Translations under genes and position numbers: made by a program
Source of the DNA: Paludisphaera mucosa
GTDB taxonomy: Bacteria; Planctomycetota; Planctomycetia; Isosphaerales; Isosphaeraceae
Length of the DNA: 64,000 nt
Reading direction: 5' to 3'
NCBI RefSeq assembly: GCF_029589435.1
Contig: NZ_JARRAG010000002.1
Span: 2,480,001-2,544,000, forward strand
The notes under the pieces: generated by a model
What the model was told of the DNA's origin: nothing
Databases searched by the model: none
What the model saw: only the letters and a program-made list of their open reading frames with translations
Shown: positions 8,163 through 52,485 of the stretch, one piece after another
Layout: every line of letters begins with the position of its first letter
Numbering within the stretch: the stretch's first letter is position 1

Positions 8163-8173
8163 GTCGACCACAC

Positions 8174-9710
8174 GAATGGCACTTAGATTTTCACAAACGG
8201 TTCCCCCGCCGCAGGATAGGAAGCCACGGGCATTCTGGCTCTGATGAGGGCGTACAACCCTCACCGGCTCGGAGCCAGATTGATGTTCAACTACGCGCAG
8301 GGACGTCTTCGGCATCAGATCGACCTCCTCCGCCAACAGTTCGTCCAGGAAGGCGGACTCCCCTTCGCCGACGTCCTATCCGCCAGCGGCCTCGAGGAGG
8401 CCCTCCGTGAGATCGAGGCGACCTGGAATGACCGCATCTACGCCCCGTTGGTAACCCTCTGGGTGTTCATCGGACAGGTGCTCAACGCCGACCAGTCCTG
8501 CCGCGCCGCCGTCGCGCGGCTGATCGCCCACCGGGTCTCACAGGGGCTCGAGCCGTGCAGCTCCGAGACGGGGGCGTATTGCCAGGCGCGGAAGCGCCTG
8601 CCCGAGCGGTTCTTCGCCGCCGTGGCCCGCCTCGTGGGGCGGAACCTGGACGCGCGAGTCGACCCGCAGTGGCTTTGGAAGGGCCGCCGCGTCTGCCTGT
8701 TCGACGGCTCGACGGTCTCCATGCCCGACACCCCGGAGAACCGCCGGGAATACCCTCTGGCCTACAACCAAGTGCCCGGGACGAGCTTCGCCCCCGCCCG
8801 GATCGGGGCGATCATCTCGCTGTCCTGCGGCGCGATCCTCGACCTGGGCGTCTGCCGCTACGCCGGCAAGGGCCAGGGCGAGGTCAGCCTGCTGCGCCAG
8901 CTGTGGGACGTGCTCCGCCCCGGCGACGTGCTGCTGGGCGACCGCCTGATGTCGGGCTGGGTCGGAATGTACCTGCTCAAGCAACGCGGGGTCGACACCG
9001 TCAGCCGCCTGTCGGCGCACCGCCGGGCCGACTTCCGCAAGGGGACCCGCCTGGGCAAGGACGATCACGTGGTCGTGTGGAAGAAGCCGTCGTCGATCCG
9101 CTCGGTGGACCGGGCGACGTACAACGCGCTGCCCGAGGCGATCACCGTCCGCGAGGTTCGCTTCCGCGTAGTGCAGCCCGGGTTCCGGACGCGGTCGGTC
9201 GTCGTCGTGACGACCATCCTGGACCCCGGGCTGGCGAGTGCGGAGGAGCTGGCTTCGCTCTACCGGGCCAGGTGGAACAACGAGTTGGATTTGCGTTCGA
9301 TCAAAATCACCTTGCAGATGGATGTTTTGCGGTGCAAGACGCCGGAGCTGGTGCGCAAGGAGATCTGGGCCCACGTCCTGGCGTACAACCTGATCCGCAC
9401 GGTGATGGCACAGGCGGCGACCATCGAAAATGTGGAACCTCGCTCGATCAGCTTCAAAGCGACGCTCCAGGTTCTCGAAGCGTTCCGGCCGCTGATCGCC
9501 TACCGGGCGCACAGCGGTGCGGACGACCAAGAGGAACTCTACGAGCAACTGCTCGGGGCCATCGCCGTGCATCGCGTGGCCGACCGGCCCGACCGGTTCG
9601 AGCCCCGCATGACCAGGAAGGGGCCGAGAGGGTATGAGGAATTGAAGCGGCCGCGAAGGGAGATCAAACTCCATATGCTCAAACGAGCTAGCAAAATCTA
9701 AGTGCCATTC
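8174..9710 (+). mobile_element. IS4-family insertion sequence, copy B (diverged relative)
   Basis: A 1,537-bp element with perfect 18-bp ends beginning GAATGGCACTTAGATTTT on both sides. It is flanked by GTCGACCACAC at 8163-8173 and 9711-9721. It belongs to the same subgroup as copies A and C, but its protein differs at many positions and its internal ends differ: CACAAACGG follows the left terminal repeat instead of the CCGTAAGC seen at the matching end of A and C. It lies in the opposite orientation to copy A, with its transposase reading away from it. Confidence 0.92.
8283..9701 (+). CDS. IS4-family transposase (copy B)
   Basis: A 472-residue relative of copies A and C with the same catalytic motifs: LFDGSTVSMPD, LLGDRLMSGW and YRARWNNELDLRSIK. 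The ATG at 8283 (MFNYAQGRLRHQ) aligns with the start of the other copies; an upstream in-frame start at 8244 would add 13 residues that they lack. Differences from copy A are spread over the whole protein, most clearly in the C-terminal third (for example IAYRAHSGADDQEELYEQL against LADPAGRGAGRLAALYERL), so this is an older, separate lineage. The frame is intact. Confidence 0.94.
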   Translation: MFNYAQGRLRHQIDLLRQQFVQEGGLPFADVLSASGLEEALREIEATWNDRIYAPLVTLWVFIGQVLNADQSCRAAVARLIAHRVSQGLEPCSSETGAYCQARKRLPERFFAAVARLVGRNLDARVDPQWLWKGRRVCLFDGSTVSMPDTPENRREYPLAYNQVPGTSFAPARIGAIISLSCGAILDLGVCRYAGKGQGEVSLLRQLWDVLRPGDVLLGDRLMSGWVGMYLLKQRGVDTVSRLSAHRRADFRKGTRLGKDDHVVVWKKPSSIRSVDRATYNALPEAITVREVRFRVVQPGFRTRSVVVVTTILDPGLASAEELASLYRARWNNELDLRSIKITLQMDVLRCKTPELVRKEIWAHVLAYNLIRTVMAQAATIENVEPRSISFKATLQVLEAFRPLIAYRAHSGADDQEELYEQLLGAIAVHRVADRPDRFEPRMTRKGPRGYEELKRPRREIKLHMLKRASKI

Positions 9711-9712
9711 GT

Positions 9713-10084
9713 CGACCACACCGAAGCAGGTTACGACGTCTCGAAGCAAGTGATCGAGGTCGATGGTCTGAGGCGACAAGGTTGGATGCCGGCGGGTTTG
9801 GCAGGCGATGGCATCTTCGCCGCGAGCGGTGGGAATTGCAGGAGAGGTCCGAAAGTCGCAACGCGAAGCACCAAAAGGAATTGCGTCGCGGTGATTCGGA
9901 GACTGCAGCAGATTGGGAGTGCGCACATGGGGCTGATTGTCAGCGGATGACTCTGACTGACTCTCGGCTTGCCAGCCTCGTAGAGGCTTGGCCCTCGCTC
10001 CCCGAGCACGTCATCCTGGCGATCGTCGCCTTGGTCGATTCCTCTCGTCTAGTGGGGTCAGATCGCCTCCAACCCCCGTCCTGA
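9713..10084 (+). pseudogene. 3' fragment of a gene, possibly an integrase-associated ORF
   Basis: The frame is open from the right edge of the IS4 pair to TGA at 10082-10084. Its last part, LTDSRLASLVEAWPSLPEHVILAIVALVDS, has regular hydrophobic spacing. It resembles, from memory, the tail found on many planctomycete phage-type integrases (a LV-x-AWP-x-LP motif followed by a short helix). The upstream part is basic and featureless. The gene has probably lost its 5' part through the insertions. The identity is a guess from one motif, and the tyrosine recombinase at 33742 does not carry this tail. Confidence 0.3.
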
Positions 10085-39017: not shown

Positions 39018-40556
39018 GAATGGCACGTAGATTTCCGTAAGCTTTACGCCGAGAGCAGGATGGGAATCTGCCGGCGATCCGGCTCCGATGGGTAAGGGAT
39101 TCATCCTCCACCATTCCGGGGCCGAGCGATGCGACTACCCTCCAACGGTCACCTCCGCCATCAGGTCGACGCCCTTCGCCGCCAGTTCCTCCAGGAGGGC
39201 GGCCTCCCGTTCACCGACGTCCTCACCGCCGACTGCCTCCAAGAGGCCCTCCGCGAGATCAAGGCGACTTGGAAGGACCGGATCTACACCCCGCTGGTGA
39301 CGCTCTGGGTCTTCCTCGGCCAGGCCCTCAACGCCGACCACTCCTGCCGCGCCGCCGTCGCGCGGCTGGTCGCCGATCGCGCCGCGCGGGGGTTGCCGCC
39401 CTGCAGCTCCGAGACCGGGGCGTACTGCCAGGCGAGGAAGCGACTGCCCGAGGGCTTCTTCTCCGCCGTGGCCCGCCGGGTAGGGCAGTCGCTGGACGCC
39501 CGGGTCGATCGGCGGTGGCTCTGGAAGGGCCGCCGCGTCTGCCTCTTCGACGGCTCGACGGTCTCCATGCCCGACACGGCGGAGAACCGCCGCGAGTACC
39601 CTCTGGCCTACAACCAGGTCCCCGGGACGAGCTTCGCCCCGGCTCGCATCGGGGCGATCATCTCGCTGTCCTGCGGCGCGATCCTCGACCTGGGCGTCTG
39701 CCGCTATGCCGGCAAGGGCCAGGGCGAGGTCAGCCTGCTGCGGCGCCTGTGGGACGTGCTCCGCCCCGGCGACGTGCTGCTGGGCGACCGCCTGATGTCG
39801 GGCTGGGTCGGCATGCACTTGCTGAAGGAACGCGGGGTGGACACCGTCAGCCGCCTCTCGGCTCATCGCCGGGCCGACTTCCGCAAGGGGGCCCGCCTGG
39901 GCAAGGACGACCACCTAGTCGTCTGGAAGAAGCCGACCTCGATCCGCTCGGTGGACCGGAAGACCTACAACGAGCTGCCCGGCTCGATCACCGTGCGCGA
40001 GACCCGCTTCCGCGTCGTTCAGCCGGGGTTCCGGACGCGGTCGATCGTGGTGGTGACGACATTGCTGGACCCGGCGCAGGCGAGCCGGGAGGAACTGGCC
40101 GGGCTGTACCGGGCCCGGTGGAATAACGAGCTCGACCTGAGGTCGATCAAGATCACGCTCCAGATGGACAGGTTGCGCTGCAAGACCCCGGAACTTGTTC
40201 GCAAGGAGATCTGGGCCCACGTCCTGGCGTACAACCTGATCCGCACGGTCATGGCCCAGGCGGCGGCCGGCGTGGGGGTGGCGCCGCGTTCGATCAGCTT
40301 CAAGGCGTCGCTGCAGGTGCTGGAGGCGTTCCGGCCGCAGCTCGCCGACCCGGCCGGCCGCGGCGCGGGCCGGCTTGCGGCGCTCTACGAGCGATTGCTG
40401 CGGGCCATCGCCGTGCACCGGGTCGGCGACCGACCCGACCGGTTCGAGCCCCGCATGACCAAGAAGGGGCCGAGGGGGTATGAAGAGCTGAAGCGACCGC
40501 GGAAGGAGATCAAGCTCCAGATCCTCAAACGAGCTAGCAAAATCTAAGTGCCATTC
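39018..40556 (+). mobile_element. IS4-family insertion sequence, copy C (identical to copy A)
   Basis: A 1,539-bp element with the same ends as copy A, in the opposite orientation in the window. It is flanked by the 11-bp target duplication GTCCGGCATAC at 39007-39017 and 40557-40567. The encoded proteins in all frames match copy A, so the two are recent sister copies. Both transposase genes are intact. Confidence 0.95.
39129..40547 (+). CDS. IS4-family transposase (copy C)
   Basis: A 472-residue protein identical to the one at 6633-8051, with the catalytic motifs LFDGSTVSMPD, LLGDRLMSGW and YRARWNNELDLRSIK. It is intact. It inserted into non-coding DNA between the response regulator and a small hypothetical gene, so no gene was broken. 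An alternative frame beginning at 39088 (MGKGFILHHSG) is only a shadow. Confidence 0.95.
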   Translation: MRLPSNGHLRHQVDALRRQFLQEGGLPFTDVLTADCLQEALREIKATWKDRIYTPLVTLWVFLGQALNADHSCRAAVARLVADRAARGLPPCSSETGAYCQARKRLPEGFFSAVARRVGQSLDARVDRRWLWKGRRVCLFDGSTVSMPDTAENRREYPLAYNQVPGTSFAPARIGAIISLSCGAILDLGVCRYAGKGQGEVSLLRRLWDVLRPGDVLLGDRLMSGWVGMHLLKERGVDTVSRLSAHRRADFRKGARLGKDDHLVVWKKPTSIRSVDRKTYNELPGSITVRETRFRVVQPGFRTRSIVVVTTLLDPAQASREELAGLYRARWNNELDLRSIKITLQMDRLRCKTPELVRKEIWAHVLAYNLIRTVMAQAAAGVGVAPRSISFKASLQVLEAFRPQLADPAGRGAGRLAALYERLLRAIAVHRVGDRPDRFEPRMTKKGPRGYEELKRPRKEIKLQILKRASKI

Positions 40557-42195: not shown

Positions 42196-42366
42196 TCACC
42201 GGCCTCGGGGGCGGAGGCGGATGTCGCCCTTGGCGACGCCGGCCGCCGCCAGAGCCGCGGCGGCCAGCAGGAAGGCGTGCCAGCTTCCGGCCGCGGCCCC
42301 GACGAAGATGGCGATGAGCAGGCAGCCGTTGACGTAGGCGACGTTCAGCTTGTTGCGGGCGTTCAA
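42196..42366 (-). CDS. Small membrane protein, 56 residues
   Basis: TTG 42366 overlaps the TGA of the preceding gene (TTGA), and GGGAGG lies upstream. The product starts MNARNKLNVAYVNGCLLIAIFVGAAAG and has a second hydrophobic stretch (WHAFLLAAAALAAAGVA), then a basic end KGDIRLRPRGR. This predicts two short transmembrane helices. It closes the - strand gene block. Similar tiny proteins accompany such blocks in other planctomycetes, as I remember; no function is known. Confidence 0.6.
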   Translation of the reverse strand: MNARNKLNVAYVNGCLLIAIFVGAAAGSWHAFLLAAAALAAAGVAKGDIRLRPRGR

Positions 42367-42809
42367 GGGCGGTCGCCTCCCGGCTGGAGTTTTCTCGGCG
42401 GTGCGGAGGACGGCGTCCGCAGCTCGGCGATCAGTCGGCTCGCCTCGACGACGGAGAGGGCCTCGGGGCCGTCGACGCCGAACCGCTCCGAGACGAGCCC
42501 TGAGAGGTCGAGGCTCCTACGGTCGCAGGCGGCCCGGAGGGCGCGGAGCTGCGAGACGGTGGCGGGCCGAATGCGTCGCCCGCGGCGGGCTTCGGGACGA
42601 GCGACGGCGCCGTCCTCCCGGCGTCGGTCCAGCTCCTCCTGCACCGCGCCGGCGCAGGCGGCGAAGGCGGCGCGGGCCCTCCGATCGAACGCCCCGGCCG
42701 CGGCGTGAGGGTCGGGGTCGGGCAGCTCGACCTCCAGGCCGCAGGTCGCGCCGAACGACCCGTAGTCAGCCAGGCCGATCTTCTTGCTGTATCCAATCGT
42801 CAGCTTCAT
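42363..42809 (-). CDS. Conserved-looking hypothetical protein of the mobile block
   Basis: A 148-residue protein from ATG 42809. The N-terminus (MKLTIGYSKKIGLADYGSFGATCGLEVEL) looks like a beta-rich domain. The middle (FDRRARAAFAACAGAVQEELDRR) is helical, and the C-terminal half carries RPATVSQLRALRAACDRRSLDL followed by a helical end. The latter segment recalls the small helical domain (A-T-x-x-Q-x-R-A) seen in ssDNA-binding Rad52-like and phage recombination proteins, but that is a loose resemblance. It overlaps the next gene by 4 bp. Likely part of the same operon as the sliding-clamp-like gene. Confidence 0.65.
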   Translation of the reverse strand: MKLTIGYSKKIGLADYGSFGATCGLEVELPDPDPHAAAGAFDRRARAAFAACAGAVQEELDRRREDGAVARPEARRGRRIRPATVSQLRALRAACDRRSLDLSGLVSERFGVDGPEALSVVEASRLIAELRTPSSAPPRKLQPGGDRP

Positions 42810-42836
42810 GGCGGTGAAGGCCCCCCGGATGATATA

Positions 42837-44267
42837 TCAAAATCGGTGAATGAGTTGGTCGGTCGAGCCGGGGCTACCCCCGGCGATTTCATGGAGCCGC
42901 GGCTCCTTGATGGAGCGGAGGGTCGAGGCGACGAGCCTGGACCGCCTCCGGTCGCGACGCAGGGCTGCGATCAGGCGGCCCGTGCGCGACCGGGCGTCGG
43001 CGAGGGCTCTGTGGAGCGCCTCGGCCTCCTGGAGCGCGGAGGCGACGCCGGCCGAGCCTTCCGGGGCGGGCTCAGGTACGGGGGCCGGGGCAGGTTCGCA
43101 CGTGAGGGGAGCCGACCTCCTCTTCTCGGTCCGATCCGCCCCGGCGGGCTCGACGACCACGGCGTCGTCGGACGGGCCGATCGCCGACTCCTTCGACAGC
43201 GGCTGCCAGGCGAACGACCTGAGGCCGTCGCGGCAGAGCGCGGGGGCGTCCGGGCCGAAGAGGCGGACCTCGTCGAAGCCGAGTCGCAAAGCCCTCGCCA
43301 GGTACTCGCGGTTCGTGTGCAGCCGGACCGGCTCGCCGGCGCAGCGCGAGCGGGCCAGGACCAGCTCGGTCGTCGGCCCCCCGCCGGACGCGCGGGCCCG
43401 CACGGCGACGCGGCCGTTGCAGTCGAGCGTCGCGGGCGCGTGCGGATCGTCGCCGCCGGGGAGGCGGTCGATCGCGGCGGCCAGGAACGCGGCGTCGCCC
43501 GGGTCGATCGCCAGCCGGGTCGAGGCCGAACCCGGGTCGGGGACGGCGTGCTCGACGTGCGGGAATCGGGCGTCGGCCTGGATCGCCGGGTGCAGCGTCC
43601 AGGCCCCGGCCCTCAGCACGACGTGTGACCCCGTCCGGCCGATCGCGACGGGGGCGTCGCGCGGCAGGGCCTTGGACGCGAAGAGCGGGACGGCGCGTAC
43701 GAGGAGGTCGTCGTCCCAGGGCAGGCCGAAGCCCCCCTGGACCAGGACCTGCCGGCCGTCGGTGGCGATCACCTCCGAGGTCGAGCCCCGCAGCAGGATG
43801 CAGTCGAGGGCGTGGCGGGCCGACCGCTCTCCGGCCGTCTGGGCGGCCTCGGACAGGGCCTCCAGGAGGCCGGGTGGACGCTCGACGAGGTCGGCGGGCA
43901 CCTCCGGGAAGGCTTGCTTCGCGACGTCCGGGACGGCGTACTCGCGGGACTGCGGGACGCCCCGGTCGTCCCAGTGCGCGGTCGAGCGTCCGGGCGAGGG
44001 GGACTCCAGGGTCACCGGCGATTCGTCGCGGCCTTCAAAGTCGGCCAGGGCCTCCATCGGGATCATGACCGACCCGTCGGCCCGGCCGTCGCCCTCCAGG
44101 AGGCATTCGACGGCCAGGTGGTCGAAGTGCAGTCGGACGAGCAGGCCGCCCGTCGGGGCCGCCTGGAGGGTGACCGGGGGGGCCGGGCCGTTGCGGGCGA
44201 GGCCCAGGGTGCGGCGGCGGAGGACGGCCCGCAGGCGGCGGGCCTCGCGACGGGTCAGGACGATCAT
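42837..44267 (-). CDS. DnaN-like (sliding clamp-related) protein
   Basis: From ATG 44267, with GGAG 8 nt upstream, the product is 476 residues. Its middle resembles DNA polymerase III beta: ALDCILLRGSTSEVIATDGRQVLVQGGF (~153-180) matches the clamp segment with ATDGHRLA, RFPHVEHAVPDP (~234-245) matches FPDYxxVIP, and VRLHTNREYLARALRLGFDEVRL matches the NPxYLxDAL segment near the end of the clamp. A ~100-residue polar tail with a basic helix is added at the C-terminus. The N-terminal domain is diverged. It may tether the element's polymerase to DNA or be a decoy clamp. The call is inference from motif spacing, not a search result. Confidence 0.6.
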   Translation of the reverse strand: MIVLTRREARRLRAVLRRRTLGLARNGPAPPVTLQAAPTGGLLVRLHFDHLAVECLLEGDGRADGSVMIPMEALADFEGRDESPVTLESPSPGRSTAHWDDRGVPQSREYAVPDVAKQAFPEVPADLVERPPGLLEALSEAAQTAGERSARHALDCILLRGSTSEVIATDGRQVLVQGGFGLPWDDDLLVRAVPLFASKALPRDAPVAIGRTGSHVVLRAGAWTLHPAIQADARFPHVEHAVPDPGSASTRLAIDPGDAAFLAAAIDRLPGGDDPHAPATLDCNGRVAVRARASGGGPTTELVLARSRCAGEPVRLHTNREYLARALRLGFDEVRLFGPDAPALCRDGLRSFAWQPLSKESAIGPSDDAVVVEPAGADRTEKRRSAPLTCEPAPAPVPEPAPEGSAGVASALQEAEALHRALADARSRTGRLIAALRRDRRRSRLVASTLRSIKEPRLHEIAGGSPGSTDQLIHRF

Positions 44268-44366
44268 AGCGGTCGACTCCATACATGGCATGTTATTGAT
44301 TAACGTTGATCGATTCGGCGTGGCCTCGGCTGGGCGGGCCTCGAAGTTCGCCCGCCGCACGGCCCG

Positions 44367-44672
44367 CTACGCCGCGTGGACGCGGCGGTGGGGCCGCCTC
44401 CCGGGCCCGGGGCCCGCGGCGTAGACGTCGGCGGCGGCGAACTCGAACTCGACGTCGCAGCCGCAGCATTCGGCGAGGGGGCGCGGGCCGGCGGGGCCGG
44501 TGATCATGGCGACTCCGCCGCCGCAGAACGGGCAGTCGACGGCCAGGTGGAGGTCCTCGGCCTCCAGGTCGTCGGGCCGCCCGGAGCGGGCCTGGAAGCC
44601 GAGGCGGCGGATCACGGCGAGCGGCTCGCCGGTGCGGCGGGAGACGGTGCGGTCGAGCTGGGACTGGGTCAC
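44367..44672 (-). CDS. Small zinc-ribbon protein
   Basis: GTG 44672 has GAGGAG upstream. The 101-residue product contains VDCPFCGGGVAM and LAECCGCDVEFEF, so two CxxC pairs ~20 residues apart that should bind Zn2+. The N-terminus (TQSQLDRTVSRRTGEPLAVIRRLGF) looks helical. Small proteins with this start and a CPFCGG centre recur in planctomycete islands, as I recall. Function unknown. It sits between the clamp-like gene and the 81-residue gene on the same strand. Confidence 0.7.
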   Translation of the reverse strand: MTQSQLDRTVSRRTGEPLAVIRRLGFQARSGRPDDLEAEDLHLAVDCPFCGGGVAMITGPAGPRPLAECCGCDVEFEFAAADVYAAGPGPGRRPHRRVHAA

Positions 44673-44770
44673 GGGTGGCTCCTCATGGGTGGGAGGACGG
44701 ATCCGGGCCGCACGACGCGCCCGGCGGCTTGGGGTCTGGTGGGTCTTGGTCGGTCACGCGCGGCGCGCGA

Positions 44771-45016
44771 TCAGCAGGGGGGCGCGAGCCGGTTGGATTC
44801 CAGCCACGCGAGCTCGGCCGCCACGGCCTCGCTGCGACGGGCGAACGGCCCGAGCGTCGGGCCGCCGGAGGGGCTCAGGTCGGCCGTCCAGCGGCCCTCG
44901 GCGTCGGGCTCGACATGGCTGGCGCGGGCGATCGTCGGGCGGCCGAGGGCCGCCAGGTCGACGGCCTCGGCGTAGACGGCCCGGACGACGCCGCGGGAGT
45001 CGACGATCAGCCGCAT
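44771..45016 (-). CDS. Small conserved hypothetical protein, 81 residues
   Basis: The start ATG shares one base with the stop of the upstream gene (TGATG, 45014-45018), a sign of translational coupling. The product begins MRLIVDSRGVVRAVYAEAVDLAALGR, has IARASHVEPDAEGRWTADLSP and ends with a helix EAVAAELAWLESNRLAPP. The layout suggests a small beta sheet plus one helix. I remember closely similar proteins in several planctomycetes, always uncharacterised. Real by position and composition; function unknown. Confidence 0.7.
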   Translation of the reverse strand: MRLIVDSRGVVRAVYAEAVDLAALGRPTIARASHVEPDAEGRWTADLSPSGGPTLGPFARRSEAVAAELAWLESNRLAPPC

Positions 45017-45996
45017 CAGGCGTCCCCCGGAGCGGCCGCCTGCCGCAGGATGCGGCGGCGGGGCCGCTCGACCAGCATCCCGTCCAACGCCGACTGCACC
45101 CGGGACAGCTGCGTCGCCACCCGCCGCCGCAGGTCAGGGGCCTCTCGCAGGTCCCTCGGGCCCACGCCCCGCACGGCCGACCGGGCCCGATCCACCAGCT
45201 CGTCGAGCTGGGCGTCGCTGCGGACGTTCAGGGCGCGGAAGCGGTCGAAGAAGTTGCAGAGGTTGTCCACGGCGGAGTCGCGGAAGACCTTGGGCCGGCC
45301 GTCGTCGCCGACGCCGTCGAGCCGCTCGGCGAGGCGCTCGACCAGGCGGGCGAACTCCTCGGCGAACGCCCGCTCGGCCAGCTCGACCGCCTCCTCGAAC
45401 CGCGACTCCATCCGCGCCCGCTCGCGTTCGTACAGGGCCGGGCTGAGCCGCGACAGATACTCGGGCGGCTCGACCGACGGGAAGTCGCACGAGACCGCGA
45501 ACAGGCCGACGAGCGTCGCCGGGTAGTCGGCCGGGTCGTACAGGCTGCCCAGGCGCTCGGCGGCGGCCCGCCGCAGGTCGCCGTAGCGGCGGTCGAGCTC
45601 GGCGACCGCCTCGTCCAGCTCCCCCTGGAAGTCGACGATCCGGCGGGCGAAGTCGTCGACCTGGTTCTTGCGGATCAGGCGCACGCCCGGCTCGGGGAAG
45701 GGCAGCGACGTCTCGCGCCAGTACGACCGGATGCGACCCCGGACGGCCGTGACGGCGCGGAAGGCGGGGTGGCCGACGTCGAGCAGCCGCTTGCCGGCGC
45801 TGAGGCAGGAGCCCTCGGCGTCGAAGGCCTCGGCGGCGCGGTCGCGCTGCGGGGCGGTGAGCGCCTTGCGGGTGCCCAGCCAGGTGAAGGAGACGCGGGC
45901 GGCGGCCGTCTCGGTTCGCAACCGTCGGGCCGGGGCGGCGAGGTCGTCGGGAGGGGCCGCGGGCGGCCCGTCGGCGAGGTTGAGCAAGGTGGTCAT
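45016..45996 (-). CDS. DUF3150-like protein
   Basis: A 326-residue, largely helical protein. Recognisable stretches are WLGTRKALTAPQRDRAAEAF, LSAGKRLLDVGHPAFRAVTAVRGRIRSYW, LPFPEPGVRLIRKNQVDDFARRIV, LYDPADYPATLVGLFAVSCDFPSVEPPEYL and VDNLCNFFDRFRALNVRS. This combination is what I associate with DUF3150, found in phages and islands next to AAA+ ATPases. Function is unknown. ATG 45996 has GGAG upstream. The neighbouring AAA+ gene ends 48 bp upstream; co-occurrence suggests the two proteins work together. Confidence 0.6.
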   Translation of the reverse strand: MTTLLNLADGPPAAPPDDLAAPARRLRTETAAARVSFTWLGTRKALTAPQRDRAAEAFDAEGSCLSAGKRLLDVGHPAFRAVTAVRGRIRSYWRETSLPFPEPGVRLIRKNQVDDFARRIVDFQGELDEAVAELDRRYGDLRRAAAERLGSLYDPADYPATLVGLFAVSCDFPSVEPPEYLSRLSPALYERERARMESRFEEAVELAERAFAEEFARLVERLAERLDGVGDDGRPKVFRDSAVDNLCNFFDRFRALNVRSDAQLDELVDRARSAVRGVGPRDLREAPDLRRRVATQLSRVQSALDGMLVERPRRRILRQAAAPGDA

Positions 45997-46043
45997 GGCG
46001 ACTCCGGTGGTGATGAAGAAATGGAGGGATGCGAAAGTGACAA

Positions 46044-47534
46044 TCAGTTATCCGACGGCGCGCCCCGGCGGACCTCGCGGCGAGGGCCGTCGAGCGTCGA
46101 CCCGCCGCGCGTGTAGACGCCGGGCCGGTCGGCGGCCAGGCAGCGGCCCGAGGCCCACGACCGCAGCCGCTCGACCGACTCGCCGGCCGTGACCGCCACC
46201 GGCACGACGTTGAGAGCCGCGTCGACCAGGGGGACGTCGAGGAGGGCCGCGAGCCGGCAGCAGGCCCGGATCTCGGCGCCGGTCCAGTCCTGGTCGCGGG
46301 GACGGCGCTGGGCGGGGTCGAGCCCGAACCGCTCCGAGTGCAGCCGCCAGATCAGCTCCCGCTCGCGGGCGTCGGGCAGGTCGATGAAGTAGACGGCGTC
46401 AAATCTCTCCGCCCGACTGAACTCCGGCGGCAGCCTCGAGACGTCGTTGCAGGTGCCGATGAAGAAGACGTCCGACATATGATCGGACAGCCACGTCAGC
46501 AGCGAGCCGAACAGCCGGGCGCCGACGCCCGAGTCGCCGTGGGAGCCCGAGGCCGCGCCGCCCAGGGCCTTCTCGACCTCGTCACAGAACAGAATGCACG
46601 GCGCCATCGCGTCGGCGATCCGCAGCGACTGCCGGACGTTCCGCTCGGTCTCGCCCACGAGCGACCCGAGCAGCGCCCCGACGTCGAGCGAAAGCGTGGG
46701 CCGGCCCGTCTCGGCGCCCAGCGCCTTCGCGAACTGCGACTTGCCCGTGCCCGGCACGCCCAGCAGGAGGATCCCGCGGGCGCCGACGCCTGCCTCGCGG
46801 CCGGGCCGAAGGGCCTTCGAGCAGAACGCCTTGAGGGCGCTCAGCCCGCCCAGGTCGGCGAACGTCCCGCCGCCGCGCTGCAGCGTCAGCAGGCCGGACT
46901 TCTTGAGCACGCCCGACTTCAGCTCCCAGAGCGGCCCGGCCGCGACCCGGCCGTGGCGCACGAGCGAGAGGCTGACCGCCCCCTCGGCCTCGAACCGCGT
47001 GAGCCCGGCGGCCGCGTCCAGGACGCGGCCCAGCTCGTCCTCGGGCATCTCGCCCGGCTCGGAGGCGATCGAGCGGGCGATCGCCTCGAGCTGGCCGAGG
47101 CCGGGCAGGTCGTGCTCGATCACGACGAACTGCTTCTCCAGTTCGACCGGGATCTGCACCACCGGCGACAGCACGACCACGAAGGTCCTGGCCTGCTTGC
47201 CCGAATGGATCCGCGCGTCGAGGGCCTGGACGACCTCGGGGCTCGCCAGGAAGCGGTGGAAGTTGACGAGCACCAGCAGCGCCGCGCCGTCGGGCGCGGC
47301 CATGGCATCCAGCGACCGGATCGCCGTCAGCGGGTCGGCGGCGTCGACGCCGGCGACGGCCGCGCCGGCGAGGGCCCGCAGCCCGCCGTCGACGTCCCAG
47401 GCGGCCAGCGACCAGCCCTCGGAGCGGCAGAGGTCGGCGATCTCGGCCAGGGCGTCCTGGTGCTCGGCCGACCGGATCCACAGGCCGGTGAAGCAGGCGC
47501 GCACGTGCTCCGCGAGGCGCTCGGCGAGCGTCAT
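46044..47534 (-). CDS. AAA+ ATPase of the Ycf46-like type
   Basis: From ATG 47534, with GAGGAG upstream, the product is 496 residues; the frame is open to 47792 without a sensible start. The N-terminal ~240 residues form a degenerate ATPase-like domain (DALAEIADLCRSEGW, LLVLVNFHRFL, VVIEHDLPGLGQLEAI). The AAA+ core has Walker A LLLGVPGTGKSQFAKAL, Walker B CILFCDEVEKALGG, sensor 1 FFIGTCNDVSRLPPEF and RAERFDAVYFIDLP with the arginine finger. This two-part layout matches Ycf46-like ATPases. All key residues are present, so it should hydrolyse ATP. DUF2997 and DUF1257 genes lie immediately upstream. Confidence 0.85.
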   Translation of the reverse strand: MTLAERLAEHVRACFTGLWIRSAEHQDALAEIADLCRSEGWSLAAWDVDGGLRALAGAAVAGVDAADPLTAIRSLDAMAAPDGAALLVLVNFHRFLASPEVVQALDARIHSGKQARTFVVVLSPVVQIPVELEKQFVVIEHDLPGLGQLEAIARSIASEPGEMPEDELGRVLDAAAGLTRFEAEGAVSLSLVRHGRVAAGPLWELKSGVLKKSGLLTLQRGGGTFADLGGLSALKAFCSKALRPGREAGVGARGILLLGVPGTGKSQFAKALGAETGRPTLSLDVGALLGSLVGETERNVRQSLRIADAMAPCILFCDEVEKALGGAASGSHGDSGVGARLFGSLLTWLSDHMSDVFFIGTCNDVSRLPPEFSRAERFDAVYFIDLPDARERELIWRLHSERFGLDPAQRRPRDQDWTGAEIRACCRLAALLDVPLVDAALNVVPVAVTAGESVERLRSWASGRCLAADRPGVYTRGGSTLDGPRREVRRGAPSDN

Positions 47535-47590
47535 CGGATTCTCCTCGATGGTGAAGGTGAAGTGGGGTGGAGAAGTGTGAAGGGGCGGCG

Positions 47591-47785
47591 TCAGGTGGAC
47601 TGCTCGAGCCGCGGCGCGGCCTGCAGGCCCTGGTGGAACTCGGCCGTCAGCGTCTCGGCCGTCCTGAGGCCCAGGGCCTGCTCGACGAACCGACTCGCCT
47701 CGCGGCAAGCCGCCCCGGCGAAGCCCTTCGTCCGCACCGTCGCCCCGCCCTTGGAATCGACGACGATCTCGATGGTCTTGCTCAT
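47591..47785 (-). CDS. DUF2997 protein
   Basis: A 64-residue protein starting MSKTIEIVVDSKGGATVRTKGFAGAAC and continuing REASRFVEQALGLRTAETLTAEF. This is the DUF2997 pattern: a short beta hairpin, a conserved G-F-x-G-x-x-C and a helix. The ATG (47783-47785) overlaps the stop of the DUF1257 gene (ATGA), so the two are coupled. DUF2997 and DUF1257 occur as neighbours in cyanobacteria, phages and planctomycetes; neither has a proven role. Confidence 0.85.
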   Translation of the reverse strand: MSKTIEIVVDSKGGATVRTKGFAGAACREASRFVEQALGLRTAETLTAEFHQGLQAAPRLEQST

Positions 47786-48150
47786 GACGCACCCCCGACC
47801 GCGATCGTGAGCTTGATCGAGCCGTCGGCCAGGGCGTGCTCGACGACGCTGCAGCCCCGCTTCCTCGCCTCGATCTTGGCCTTCTCCACCGCGTAGAACT
47901 GGACCAGGCGGTCCAGGTGCTCCGGCGCCCCCCAGGCCCCGTCGAAGTTGTCGTAGCGGACCCGGCCGGCGGCCGCGTCGACCACCACCGGATAGAGCCA
48001 TCCGGGCAGCCTCACGAGCAGCCCGGCGGCCTCGCCGGAATAGAGCTTGGCGACGCCCTGCACCGGCTCGGCCAGGCCGAGCCGCCGGCAGGCGGCCGCG
48101 ACCGCCGCCGGGTCGCGCAGCTGGGTCATGATCGTCACGATGTGGCTCAC
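47782..48150 (-). CDS. DUF1257 (Ycf35-like) protein
   Basis: A 122-residue protein starting MSHIVTIMTQLRDPAAVAAACRRLGL, with LPGWLYPVVVDAAAGRVRYDNFDGAWG and the ending ADGSIKLTIAVGG. This is the Ycf35/DUF1257 pattern. It is the first gene of the - strand block, transcribed towards DUF2997 and the AAA+ ATPase, and probably carries the operon promoter upstream in 48151-48250. Ycf35 is also encoded in some algal plastids; its biochemical role is unknown to me. Confidence 0.87.
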   Translation of the reverse strand: MSHIVTIMTQLRDPAAVAAACRRLGLAEPVQGVAKLYSGEAAGLLVRLPGWLYPVVVDAAAGRVRYDNFDGAWGAPEHLDRLVQFYAVEKAKIEARKRGCSVVEHALADGSIKLTIAVGGAS

Positions 48151-48689: not shown

Positions 48690-50424
48690 GGTTCTCCCGC
48701 ACTTTCGGTGGCCGAGTCGCGTATCACCGATGGCCCGAAGGCGACGGTCGTCTTCGGTGAGATCAATCGCGGAGCTTCTCGCTGACATCGTCCGGCCCCT
48801 CTTTCCTCCTACCGGAGGGCTTCCGCCTCGACCACCTCGCCCTCGAGGGCGACTCGATCATCGCCCACATTACGCCGACCTCGCCGACCGCCGCATGTCC
48901 GACCTGCGGCTGCTCCTCCCCGCGGGTCCGCAGCCGGTACGTCCGACGGCTGGCCGACCTGCCCTGCCGGGGGAGTGAGGTCCGGCTGCTCCTGACGGTC
49001 CGGCGGTTCGTCTGCACGGTCGAGACCTGCCCGAGACGCATCTTCGCCGAACGACTTCCCGGCCTCGCGGGATCCCGGGCGAGGGCGACGGAGTCGCTCA
49101 GGAACGCTCAGGAGGCCATCGGCGACGCCCTCGGCGGCGAGGCCGGCTCTCGTCTCGCCGGCCGCCTGGCGATGTCCGCCAGCCCCGACACGCTGCTACG
49201 CCGGGTCAGGCTCCGGTCCCGCGAAGTGCCCACGACCCCCCGGGCCCTCGGCGTGGACGACTTCGCATTCCGAAAGGGGGCCCGCTACGGCACGATCCTG
49301 GTCGACCTGGAGACCCGCCGCGTCATCGACCTGCTCCCCGACCGCGAGGCGACGACGCTGTCCGCCTGGCTGCGGGCTCGCCCCGGGATCGAGGTCGTCG
49401 CCCGGGATCGGTCCAACGCCTACGCCCTGGCTGCCGGCGAGGCCGCCCCGGCCGCCGTGCAGGTGGCCGACCGGTGGCACCTGCTCAAGAACATCCGGGA
49501 GGCCCTTCAGCGGGCCCTGCAGCAGCGATCGAGGGCGATCCGGGAGCTGCCGGGCGGTGCGACCGGTAGCCCGGAGCCGGGTGGTGGATCCGACCCGCCG
49601 GCGAGCCGGCCGGAGGCGGGGCGGTCCGCGAACCAGGAGGCGCGGCGATCCCGATTCGAGGAGGTCCGGCGGCTCCACCGCGAGGGGGCGTCGCTGCGGG
49701 CGATCACCCGCGCCGTCGGCGTGCATTACCGGACCGTCGAGCGCTACGTCCGGTCCGAAGCGTGCCCCGACTGGCGGCCCGGCCGCCGGGGGCCGAGCCG
49801 GCTAGACCGGTTCGCCGGCCACATCCTCCGACGGCTGGACGAGGGGTGCCGGAATGCGCGGCAGATCCGCCGCGAGCTGCTCGCGAAGGGCTACAGAGGG
49901 GCGATCAGCACGGTCCGGGAGTACGTCCGGCGGATCGAGGGCGAGCGGGGCGCGGCCCCGCCGGCGGCGGCCCCGGCGACCGACGCTCCCCGCGCCGAGA
50001 CGCCCTCGCCGCGCCGGCTCGCGGCCCTTGCGGTGATCCGGCCGAGCGACCGCCCCGAGGACGGGCAACGGGCCCTCGACGCGCTGCGCGAGGGGGATGA
50101 GGCGCTGCGGGAGTCGCTGGAGTTGACCGAGGGGTTTGCCGCCGTCATCCGCGGCCGCCGCCCGGATGACCTGACCGGGTGGCTGGCCCGGGCCGAGGGC
50201 TCGTCGGTGCCGGAGATGCGGTCGTTCGCCCGCGGTCTGCGCGGGGACGAGGCGGCGATCCGTGCCGGGATCGAGCTGCCGTGGAGCAACGGCCCGACCG
50301 AGGGGCACGTCAACCGCCTCAAGGCGATCAAGCGGTCGATGTACGGGCGGGCCCGATTCGACCTCCTTCGGGCACGCGTTCTCGCAGCCGGATAGGACCC
50401 GATCACCGAAAGTGCGGGAGAACC
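48690..50424 (+). mobile_element. ISL3-family insertion sequence
   Basis: Perfect 21-bp terminal inverted repeats: the left end begins GGTTCTCCCGCACTTTCGGT (48690-48710) and the right end is its exact complement (50404-50424). The element is 1,735 bp and contains one transposase gene. No matching 8-bp target duplication is seen: the left flank is GAGAAAAC and the right flank ACTATCCC. A flank may therefore have been rearranged after insertion. Confidence 0.9.
48757..50395 (+). pseudogene. ISL3-family transposase with an N-terminal frameshift
   Basis: The main frame runs from ~48760 to TAG 50395 and contains the ISL3 zinc-binding domain (AACPTCGCSSPRVRSRYVRR, then VCTVETCPRRIFAERLPGL). The catalytic region follows: LGVDDFAFRKGARYGTILVD, VVARDRSNAYALAA, QVADRWHLLKNI, and near the end WSNGPTEGHVNRLKAIKRSMYGRA with the catalytic Glu. 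The first ATG in that frame is 49172, which would lose the zinc domain. The expected N-terminus, VRSIAELLADIVRPLFP from GTG 48757, is in another frame, with the shift near 48800. Either a broken gene, an unusual start or a sequencing slip. The helix-turn-helix insert (LREGASLRAITRAVGVHYRTV-like) is present at ~49690. Confidence 0.8.
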
Positions 50425-50650: not shown

Positions 50651-51580
50651 ATGCCGACGCCCGGAACCGATCCTGCCCCTTCCATCCGCCTCCAGGACCA
50701 TTTCGCGAGCCTCGCCGATCCGCGACGCCGCAAGGTCACGTATCCGCTGATCAACGTCGTCGTCATCGCGGTCTGCGCCGTCGTCGCGGGTGCCGACGAT
50801 TTCGTCTCGATCGCCTTGTGGGGCCGCGAGCGGCGCGACTGGCTGTCGAAGTTCCTCGACCTCTCGGCGGGCGTACCCTCGCACGACCGCTTCAACGCGA
50901 TCTTCCGCGCCCTCGACCCGCGCGCCTTCGAGGCGTGCCTGCTGAGTTGGATCGCCGCCCTTCACGAGGCGACCGCCGGGCAGGTCGTGGCGATCGACGG
51001 CAAGACGCTGCGGGGGAGCTTCGACCGGGCCTCGGGCAAGTCGGCGATCCACATGGTCTCGGCCTGGGCGACGGCCGCCAGGCTGAGCCTGGGCCAGGTG
51101 GTCGTCGACGAGAAGTCCAACGAGATTACGGCGATCCCCGAGCTGCTGCGCCTGCTGGAGTTGGAGGGCTGCCTGGTGACGATCGACGCGATGGGCTGCC
51201 AGGTCGAGATCGCCCGGGCGATCCGCGGACGCAAGGCCGACTACGTCCTGGCGGTGAAGGACAACCAGCCGACGCTGCATAGCGGGGTCGAGGACTTCTT
51301 CCTGGGGCACATGGAGGACGACTTCGCCCGCGTGAAGGTCGGCCGGCACGAGACGAAGGAGAAGGGCCACGGCCGGACCGAACATCGGTCGTACTACGTC
51401 TGCGTTGCCCCGGCCGACCTCCCGGACCGCGAGCGGTGGCCGGACTTGGCGGCCATCGGCGTGGCGATCAACGTCTCGACGCGCGACGGCAGGCCGAGCG
51501 ACGCCGTGCGGTATTAAATCCTCAGCCGCCGCCTGGACGCCGAGGCGTTCGCGGATGCGGTCCGAGGCCACTGGGGGATC
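50651..51580 (+). pseudogene. ISAs1-family transposase, truncated and with an in-frame stop (copy 1)
   Basis: From ATG 50651: LQDHFASLADPRRRKVTYPLIN, VVAIDGKTLRGSFD (first catalytic Asp), CLVTIDAMGCQVEIA (second) and YVLAVKDNQPTL identify an ISAs1 (H-repeat-type) transposase. TAA at 51514-51516 replaces a Tyr codon in the expected RYYILS. The frame beyond it continues ILSRRLDAEAFADAVRGHWGI and then stops matching at ~51580, where the inverted second copy begins. The usual last ~75 residues, including the catalytic Glu in a WxIEN context, are missing. It cannot be active. Confidence 0.85.
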
Positions 51581-52485
51581 TCGATGTCCCAGTGACCCCG
51601 GACGAAGCCCGCGATCTCCGCCGCCGTCCCCGCGTAGCTCGTCAGGTAGTAGTGGCTGGTGCTGGTTCGCTCCCCGCCTACCTCCCGCTCCCGATTCACC
51701 AGGACCACGGCCGACGCGTCCGGCCAATCGGGCGGTAACCCCGACGGGTCGTGAATGACCGTCACGTAGCGCTCCTCGTGCCGCCCGTGGCCGTCCTCCA
51801 CGTCCTCGTGCCCGTCGGACCGGACCCCGACGAAGTCGGCCTCACAGGCACGGTCGAGCACCGCCTCGACGGCCACCCGCAGCGTCGGCTGGTTGTCCTT
51901 GACCGCCAGCAGGTAGTGCCCCTCCTGCTGGCGGATGATCCGGGCGTTCTCGATCTGGCATCCGGCCGCGTCGATGGTCACGATGGCCCCGGCGAGGTCC
52001 AGCGTTCGGAGCAGCTCCGGGATCGCGGCGATCTCGTTCGAGCCTTCCGCCACGCTCGCCGTGCCGAGGACCAGGCGGTTCTCGGCGGCCCACGCCGTGA
52101 CCACGTGCAGGCATCCCGTGGCCGTGTTCCTCTTGGCCCCCCGGGCCGACTTCCCATCGATGGCAACGGGGATCAGCCCGTTCGCCTCGCATGCCGCCGT
52201 CATCCACCGGCCAAACGCCTCGGCGAACGACACGGGGTCGAGCTTGGCGAACACCCGCTCGAACGTGTCCGGGCTGGGGATGCCGTTGTCGAGCGGGAGG
52301 AACCGGCGGAAGAACTCGGCCTTGGTCCGCCCGTACTCGGCGATCGCCTCCCACGACTCGGCCCCGCCGATCACCGCACACGTAGCGATCACGAGGATGT
52401 CGGTGAGGCGATGGAGCTTGTTCTTGGTCTGGCGACGCGGGTCGGGCAGGTCGTCAAACACGGCCGTGAGAGGCATGTGCGGCAT
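51581..52485 (-). pseudogene. ISAs1-family transposase lacking its C-terminus (copy 2)
   Basis: From ATG 52485, with GGAGGAG upstream, the frame reads MPHMPLTAVFDDLPDPRRQTKNKL, LIPVAIDGKSARGAKR, AIVTIDAAGCQIENA and FVRGHWDIE, then runs into the copy 1 sequence in reverse (nonsense from ~51580 to a stop at 51514). The true C-terminus with the end of the catalytic domain is absent. It is about as different from copy 1 as two members of one family, so the two came from different elements. Confidence 0.85.

Follow-up and report, generated by a model that had tools for sequence, protein, structure and literature searches.

What are nine closely packed genes on one strand of a planctomycete chromosome doing together, and do they belong together at all? 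The question is raised by positions 42196–48150 of the window, which here means the whole 64,000-nucleotide stretch of Paludisphaera mucosa DNA that was analysed (contig NZ_JARRAG010000002.1, positions 2,480,001 to 2,544,000). A sequence-only reading had proposed that the block is a conserved cassette of a mobile replicon, or a nucleic-acid-handling system. The present analysis shows the block to be a single instance of a mobile gene cassette that has relatives in large phages and on plasmids. Its first five genes are a conserved core, encoding a Cdc48-like AAA+ ATPase and four companions, and this core moves together with a sliding-clamp-like module or, alternatively, with a set of genes for ubiquitin-like tagging. 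All nine open reading frames were found on the minus strand, and the GTG codon that opens the first of them at 48150 confirms where the block ends. From upstream to downstream (g1 to g9) they are:

g1, 47782..48150, minus strand: distantly DUF1257-like protein of 122 residues, beginning MSHIV, with a GTG start at 48150; its stop overlaps the start of g2
g2, 47591..47785, minus strand: DUF2997 protein of 64 residues (Pfam PF11211, 9e-12), with a G-x-x-C motif
g3, 46044..47534, minus strand: AAA+ ATPase of 496 residues, ATG start at 47534 (Pfam AAA, 6.7e-26)
g4, 45016..45996, minus strand: DUF3150-like protein of 326 residues; the signature gene of the cassette in searches
g5, 44771..45016, minus strand: conserved protein of 81 residues; its start overlaps the stop of g4
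g6, 44367..44672, minus strand: small protein with two CxxC-type motifs (zinc-ribbon-like); weak match to Lar (0.015, below cut-off)
g7, 42837..44267, minus strand: beta-clamp (DnaN)-like protein, of the clamp-type tail
g8, 42363..42809, minus strand: protein of 148 residues, belonging to the clamp-type tail
g9, 42196..42366, minus strand: protein of 56 residues with a hydrophobic stretch; its TTG start overlaps the stop of g8

The overlaps reported earlier at three junctions can all be read in the sequence, as ATGA between g1 and g2 (47785–47782), TGATG between g4 and g5 (45018–45014) and TTGA between g8 and g9 (42366–42363); g7 probably starts at the ATG at 44267. Only DUF2997 and AAA exceed Pfam cut-offs among the nine proteins of the block, so that these two labels stand as given (g2 scores 45.1 bits against PF11211, for which the curated cut-off is 24.1). 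The DUF1257 label has to be softened: g1 reaches 15.5 bits against DUF1257/Ycf35 (PF06868; cut-off 22.2, E = 0.021) and matches DUF3288, likewise below cut-off, at E = 0.00024. It does align with annotated DUF1257 proteins, and is 40% identical to a Thermovibrio protein whose gene adjoins DUF2997. Because the cut-off is missed and the relation is one of alignment to annotated members, g1 is named DUF1257-like only. Similarly, the Pfam search gave no DUF3150 (PF11348) match for the g4 of the window, while a Manganitrophus relative 31% identical to it passes at 1e-8 (35.3 bits against a cut-off of 24.9), hence DUF3150-like. The DnaN-like label of g7 is upheld by its family profile, which matches solved beta clamps at 1.6e-8 across about 110 central residues only, and by a match to the PHROG family ‘DNA polymerase processivity factor’ at 7e-7; window g7 alone gave no Pfam match. 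Sequence searches for solved relatives of g1 and g4 returned nothing usable.

Relatives of the cassette were collected by way of g4. A profile scan of genome contigs (one genome per species, 84,980 species) yielded 169 relatives, and the 80 best of them were retained; viral contigs, also scanned, yielded 15. Profiles of all nine genes were then run over the fetched loci, and the counts below refer to 95 planctomycete-type loci, the window included, and 14 viral loci. Repeats were dropped by eye (L069, L071, L072, L078, L091, L093 and L157); plasmid loci, the phage Tunturi_3 and the other region of the window's own genome were set aside; and the near-identical pairs L057/L080 (97.7%) and L153/L154 (99.97%) are still counted, as are some loci with other or vague names (for example L133, ‘Emcibacter’, and L130, ‘bacterium’). 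A complete core on a single strand is seen at 62 of the 95 planctomycete-type loci, 61 of them in the order 1-2-3-4-5 and one with an extra g2; many of the loci with an incomplete core are cut by contig ends. Where at least 3.5 kb is available upstream of g4 (69 genome loci), g1 is present in 57, g2 in 57 and g3 in 64, and g5 is found at 85 of the 86 genome loci with at least 1.5 kb downstream. Among the viral loci, 13 of 14 hold the five genes, eleven in the same order and two as 3-4-1-2-5, and two Manganitrophus plasmids show the order 3-1-2-4-5. Spacing is tight as well: profile matches of g1 and g2 are at most 50 nt apart in 59 of 62 genome pairs and in 14 of 14 viral pairs, and those of g4 and g5 in 91 of 94 genome pairs, although g4 and g5 are more than 500 nt apart at 12 of 13 viral loci. 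Insertions between g2 and g3, and between g3 and g4, are tolerated at the genome loci. The first five genes are thus a conserved same-strand core.

Downstream of the core, neighbour clustering and family searches revealed two kinds of genes, either the clamp-like g7 or a four-gene set for a ubiquitin-like protein (Ubl), an E2-like protein, a JAB protein and an E1. Among genome loci, 53 extend 7 kb or more downstream, and these divide into 21 with the clamp only, 18 with the E2-like gene only, two with both and 12 with neither (two of these 12 have g8); the Fisher p is 1.5e-4, uncorrected for relatedness. At the 23 clamp loci of this length g8 accompanies g7 in 12 and a Cas4-like PD-(D/E)XK nuclease in seven; the E1-like, Ubl, JAB and E2-like genes are encoded together at 19 of the 53. 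The Ubl consists of 73 residues ending in KIEGA (once KIDGA, once KIEGG), followed by a tail of 0–35 residues, in 13 sequences; its ThiS-like Pfam match (6e-4) lies below cut-off and a sequence search for solved relatives gave nothing usable. The E2-like protein has an invariant HPHV-x5-C and then RING-like cysteine pairs; the latter part has only weak matches (best 0.0016), some to RING or other zinc-binding proteins and some to unrelated ones. The JAB protein, with a Pfam match of 1e-4 that is below cut-off and an Rpn11 match at 0.004, has JAMM residues invariant in 18 sequences, and the E1 is of ThiF type (Pfam 3.8e-24).

The two tails have been exchanged repeatedly. On a quick tree of 88 g4 proteins, with 45 rows labelled by tail (‘clamp’ here including loci with g8 or Cas4 alone), the clamp/ubl label requires at least 14 changes by parsimony; the clamp label is somewhat clustered, as few changes being found in 2 of 500 shuffles. 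One Schlesneria metagenome-assembled genome even holds two supported sister loci (L081 and L098) with one tail each. When 294 genomes of the phylum were searched with an E2-like/RING profile built from g4-linked loci, 15 near-full-length places were found in 8 genomes, 12 of them within 3 kb of g4, along with six more weak matches mainly over the cysteine-rich part. The Ubl profile finds the same 15 places. Profile searches of the window's own genome gave no match to this Ubl or E2-like family.

The mobile nature of the cassette, as proposed in the sequence-only reading, is supported by its distribution. Had the genes rarely been found together, or only at fixed chromosomal sites, the proposal would have failed; across genomes, plasmids and viral contigs they are usually together, and they occur patchily, in several copies and at different sites within one genome. 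The window's own genome holds three copies, the g4 genes of the other two being 91 and 92% identical to that of the window. Both of these keep g1–g6 and g9, and g7 and g8 were found at neither. In copy 2 (G000:C2:1795919-1801835) a 2.4-kb insertion interrupts the AAA+ gene, and a suspected 8-base target-site duplication there was rejected, as the two junction sequences differ and there is no exact duplication. Copy 3 has a second DUF1257-like stretch directly upstream of g1 (about 1838678–1839414 of G000:C2), and L050 is similar. A g4 match is present in 25 of 59 genomes (this one and 58 relatives), with up to five per genome, some of them fragments, and in 19 of the 294 phylum genomes, this one included, with as many as seven in a single genome; of these 19, G076 and G136 have weak or partial matches only. 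The genome with seven (G266) carries them at seven chromosomal sites, and the DNA shared between these is mostly the cassette and a few kb around it. Within the phylum the cassette is therefore both patchy and multi-copy.

Three unlike transposases surround the copy in the window:

39129..40547, plus strand: DDE_Tnp_1 transposase (Pfam 9.6e-15)
49172..50395, plus strand: ISL3-type transposase (Pfam 7.5e-33)
51514..52485, minus strand: DDE_Tnp_1-associated transposase (Pfam 5e-32)

Serine recombinases were seen at 14 of the 95 genome loci as fetched, many of which are too short to show them. The G+C content of 0.745–0.754 at 42–46 kb exceeds that of the neighbouring DNA, yet 60–62 kb reaches 0.757. 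In 11 of the 14 viral loci a terminase-like gene (cluster 13) lies about 7.5–9.7 kb away on the opposite strand. A Pfam search of nine viral records found a GpA-type terminase in five and a portal protein in two others, and neither in the record of L147; whole record L150 also gave no match, though its terminase-like protein alone passes the GpA cut-off. On two Manganitrophus plasmids, about 199 and 329 kb in size, the AAA+, DUF1257, DUF2997, DUF3150 and g5 genes are neighbours, the DUF1257 and DUF3150 genes each being annotated in two pieces in CP114554, and a third plasmid has g4 and g5 matches. A gene labelled ‘JAB domain-containing’ beside the Manganitrophus plasmid core matches RadC models below their cut-offs, and is not counted as evidence for deubiquitination.

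Part of the core reaches well beyond the planctomycetes. Neighbourhoods around AAA+ matches were opened on 14 plasmids and in four phages, drawn from the best 40 of 1239 plasmid records and 40 of 110 phage records. DUF2997, annotated or detected, lies near the AAA+ gene on 11 of the 14 plasmids (two of them from Manganitrophus) and in three of the four phages; it was not found there in Catdawg or on the Treponema, Microcystis and Calditerrivibrio plasmids. A DUF1257-like protein accompanies DUF2997 in all of these plasmids and phages, the match being weak on two actinobacterial plasmids and in Tunturi_3 (E from 0.0025 to 0.00014), and the Thermovibrio protein, which its record leaves unnamed, having been included in the profile by us. 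In Thermovibrio the DUF1257-like/DUF2997 pair is on the opposite strand from the AAA+ gene, and in Pseudanabaena and Geminocystis other genes separate the members. Partners also vary, with DUF3150 in Manganitrophus, a g4 relative in Tunturi_3 and helix-hairpin-helix proteins in actinobacteria. The g4 relative of Tunturi_3 (L066, 12396–13355) is labelled ‘HNH endonuclease’, yet it aligns with g4 over its length and shows no HNH domain in Pfam, which suggests that the annotation is mistaken.

The AAA+ protein comprises an N-terminal region of about 220 residues and a single AAA domain, in which the Walker A motif reads GVPGTGKS, Walker B contains DE and an R-x-E-R-F-D box is present; with both Walker motifs and the second region of homology, it qualifies as a classic AAA ATPase. 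It matches PHROG_8638 across residues 4–474 (3.6e-78), and among solved structures the AAA+ profile scores best against AFG2, Cdc48 and VCP (among the best 60 of 269). In 60 AAA+ proteins the patterns were found 60 times for Walker A, 49 for Walker B, 52 for R-x-ERFD and 55 for a pore-loop-like motif, and as the patterns are strict, a miss need not mean a loss. Comparison of the window with the other copies in its own genome gave ratios of nonsynonymous to synonymous substitution rates (dN/dS) of 0.18 for g3, 0.20–0.23 for g4 and 0.41–0.54 for g5, and the core is under purifying selection.

Two further families recur beside the core. One (c6) is upstream of it at 17 loci and has a strongly hydrophobic stretch in 17 of 17 members; the other (c16) lies between g3 and g4 at 11 loci, with such a stretch in 7 of 11 members. 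Judged by these stretches, both are probably membrane-bound. At L194 and L195 (in G281 and G287) the gene order is c6-g6-Ubl-E2-like-JAB-E1 without g1–g5, which looks like loss of the core from between c6 and g6.

What, then, might the cassette do? Of the explanations considered, the one we judge most likely, and put forward tentatively, is that it encodes a Cdc48-like AAA+ remodeller with dedicated partners, which takes apart protein or protein–DNA complexes for mobile replicons. As a single-domain relative of Cdc48 and AFG2, g3 probably forms a ring that unfolds proteins or separates protein complexes. From the linkage we infer a physical partnership, in which g1, g2, g4 and g5 would serve g3 as substrate adaptors or assembly subunits, and the core would be combined with one of two target-selecting tails. 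The clamp tail (g7 and g8, at some loci with a Cas4-like nuclease) may direct the machine to replicating or recombining DNA, and the Ubl tail (Ubl, E2-like/RING-like protein, JAB and E1) may mark substrates for g3; the likely benefit would be that the mobile element is maintained, with protein–DNA complexes being cleared or remodelled. The reading draws on the linkage of the core in planctomycetes, on Nitrospirota plasmids and on viral contigs, together with the short distances between genes; on the AAA+ motifs, the Cdc48/AFG2/VCP matches and the low dN/dS of g3 and g4; and on the counts and exchange of the tails, the E2-like places near g4 and the trio on plasmids and in phages of other phyla. 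It leaves the earlier suggestion of nucleic-acid handling partly in place: the clamp-like tail and the occasional Cas4-like nuclease fit it, while about as many relatives carry the ubiquitin-like set. A broader version, which we regard as speculative and rather improbable, would see in the cassette a bacterial counterpart of the eukaryotic ubiquitin–Cdc48 segregase axis on mobile DNA. There the core with its fixed adaptors, steered by a Ubl tag that has its own E1, E2-like/RING-like protein and JAB deconjugase or by a clamp-like protein (at some loci with a nuclease), would strip proteins from DNA for replication and spread of the element, and the AAA+/DUF1257/DUF2997 heart would be an ancient module that the cassette shares with cyanobacteria and plastids.

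Several observations sit badly with a remodeller. The E2-like region has no Pfam match and no E2 among its solved-structure matches. Neither tail is present at 12 of the 13 viral loci with 7 kb downstream, so the core needs no tail. Conversely, three of the 15 Ubl places lack g4 (two keep the flanking c6 and g6 without g1–g5, and the third has none of these within 20 kb), so that the Ubl set can exist by itself. On the g4 tree the ubl label shows no clustering beyond what shuffling gives (148 of 500 as low), and the tail labels rest on a quick tree in which 21 of 83 branches have support under 80. The dN/dS of g1 is 0.22 in one comparison and 0.63 in the other, and g6, at 0.91–0.98, is nearly neutral. 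The recurrent membrane-protein neighbours c6 and c16 are unexplained by this reading, and plasmids of other phyla pair the trio instead with 4Fe-4S/radical-SAM genes or, in Pseudanabaena, with Hsp70/GrpE genes.

Some of these features would suit a role in defence or conflict between elements, with the AAA+ core as sensor or chaperone and the tails as effectors acting on invading DNA (clamp, Cas4-like nuclease) or on proteins of the invader (Ubl). Effectors are often membrane-bound, as c6 and c16 appear to be, and Bil operons have a defence role. The cassette is patchy and multi-copy, with exchanged tails and, at some loci, the Cas4-like nuclease, its AAA domain resembles that of IetA, and a bacterial Ubl-type conjugation step is reported to enhance anti-phage defence (PMC10097602). 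On the other side, a PADLOC search of g1, g2, g3, g4 and g7 has g3 resembling IetA and TRIP13 in the AAA domain only, and assigns none of these five to a known defence system; across the cassette the PADLOC matches are to generic AAA, E1, JAB and Cas4 models, with none for g1, g2, g4 or g7. Since the core is itself carried by plasmids and by viral contigs, near a terminase-like gene in most of the latter, we consider defence somewhat unlikely, and place it second. Its viral setting speaks instead for an accessory that large phages and plasmids would use in replication or DNA packaging, and whose chromosomal copies would be decaying remnants; a clamp-like and Cas4-like tail and the interrupted AAA+ gene of copy 2 would be in keeping with that. 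Decay is, however, hard to reconcile with the low dN/dS of g3 and g4 among those same copies and with a gene order kept over deep divergence, and the Ubl tail has no obvious packaging role, which makes this the least probable of the four explanations that we rank.

Ranked between these two, and distinctly unlikely in our judgement, is a maturation or redox chaperone, in which AAA+, DUF1257 and DUF2997 would insert or activate a cofactor and the conserved DUF2997 cysteine would be the chemical site. The G-x-x-C motif is present in 58 of 58 collected members of the cassette family and in all 10 annotated plasmid members listed. The trio stands beside a 4Fe-4S single-cluster protein on plasmids of Paenibacillus (L162), Paenarthrobacter (L164) and Rhodococcus (L186), the one searched (L162) also matching Radical_SAM, and 4Fe-4S neighbours occur on Treponema and Bacillus plasmids too. 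Synechocystis has, according to a paper on its ferredoxins, the cluster DUF2997 – ycf35 (DUF1257) – fed7 (PMC4284462). Against this, no ferredoxin or radical-SAM protein was seen among 22 representatives of recurrent neighbours that were read (10 searched with Pfam), and the planctomycete tails are DNA- or Ubl-related. That the genes are chance neighbours in a region rich in insertion sequences, and no functional unit, is already contradicted by the counts: three unlike transposases do lie nearby, but the order is kept across the phylum and beyond, starts overlap, and dN/dS of g3 and g4 is well below 1, so that hardly any likelihood is left to it.

Set against known systems, the parts of the cassette are of familiar kinds, namely AAA+ remodellers, Ubl conjugation operons and sliding clamps. 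AFG2 and Cdc48/p97 provide the best solved matches of the g3 AAA domain; g3 departs from them in having a single AAA domain, and in its N-terminal region and partner proteins. Pairs of MoxR-type AAA+ and VWA proteins (RavA–ViaA, NorQ–NorD) are alike in joining an AAA+ protein to a dedicated partner, and a g4 relative on a Paraburkholderia plasmid sits between an ATP-binding gene and a VWA-like gene; g3 is of the classic AAA family (Cdc48-like), however, and the planctomycete core showed no VWA gene. The PRTRC plasmid system (NCBIfam) also combines E1-like and Ubl-like proteins on plasmids, and a PRTRC protein C is annotated on one core-bearing Nitrospirota plasmid, but the planctomycete E1 that was compared reaches 36.7 bits where PRTRC_ThiF requires 144.75 and the Ubl compared has no PRTRC match, so the Ubl tail is not assigned to that system. 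Closer are the bacterial E1–E2–JAB–Ubl operons (Iyer et al. 2006, PMC1779556; Bil, PMC11354881). These likewise hold a Ubl and a ThiF-type E1, a JAB protein (whose JAMM motif is complete here) and an E2-like protein (here with an invariant HPHV-x5-C); the Ubl tail differs in consisting of separate genes, in having the E2-like region followed by RING-like cysteine pairs, and in its linkage to the core. The term AAA+ is absent from the text of Iyer et al. The Synechocystis cluster named above is alike in that DUF2997 adjoins DUF1257 in both, and the cassette differs in adding AAA+, DUF3150-like and g5 genes, in showing no ferredoxin gene and in its mobile elements.

No description of the cassette, or of one core with interchangeable tails, was found in our searches of the open-licence literature. 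The likeliest prior description of the Ubl/E2-RING tail is the 2011 work of Burroughs et al. on prokaryotic RING fingers. The cassette supplies a context and a list of partners for three unexplained families, DUF1257/Ycf35, DUF2997 and DUF3150, two of which are also neighbours in cyanobacteria. Through it, a bacterial ubiquitin-like pathway of several components is connected with a Cdc48-like AAA+ protein, and elsewhere the same core is paired with a sliding-clamp-like protein. If the machine does act on tagged or clamp-bound proteins, it would offer a compact model for the targeting of AAA+ segregases in organisms other than eukaryotes and archaea.

Other genes and repeats around the cassette deserve brief mention. 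A supposed second Ubl between g2 and the AAA+ gene was rejected, since the alignment shows an unrelated family (VEGxHDxxFL ... ENYL), and the mixed neighbour cluster was split into 14 Ubl and 8 others, which left the tail counts unchanged. Members between g2 and g3 are found at L080, L101, L109, L114, L117, L133, L144 and L147, and a profile finds 17 loci. The one member searched has no Pfam match, and by its motif the family looks Toprim-like. Elsewhere in the window, a repeat of about 1.55 kb at 8165–9730 recurs at 99.6–99.9% identity in at least three other places in the 160 kb fetched of the same contig, and is probably a recently active insertion sequence. Finally, a family of which one member matched DUF6915 (PF21866) is encoded at a viral locus (L149, 14532–14957) and at the genome loci L057, L080, L109, L121, L129, L136 and L144, and being common to viral contigs and to genome loci of the cassette it hints at exchange between them.

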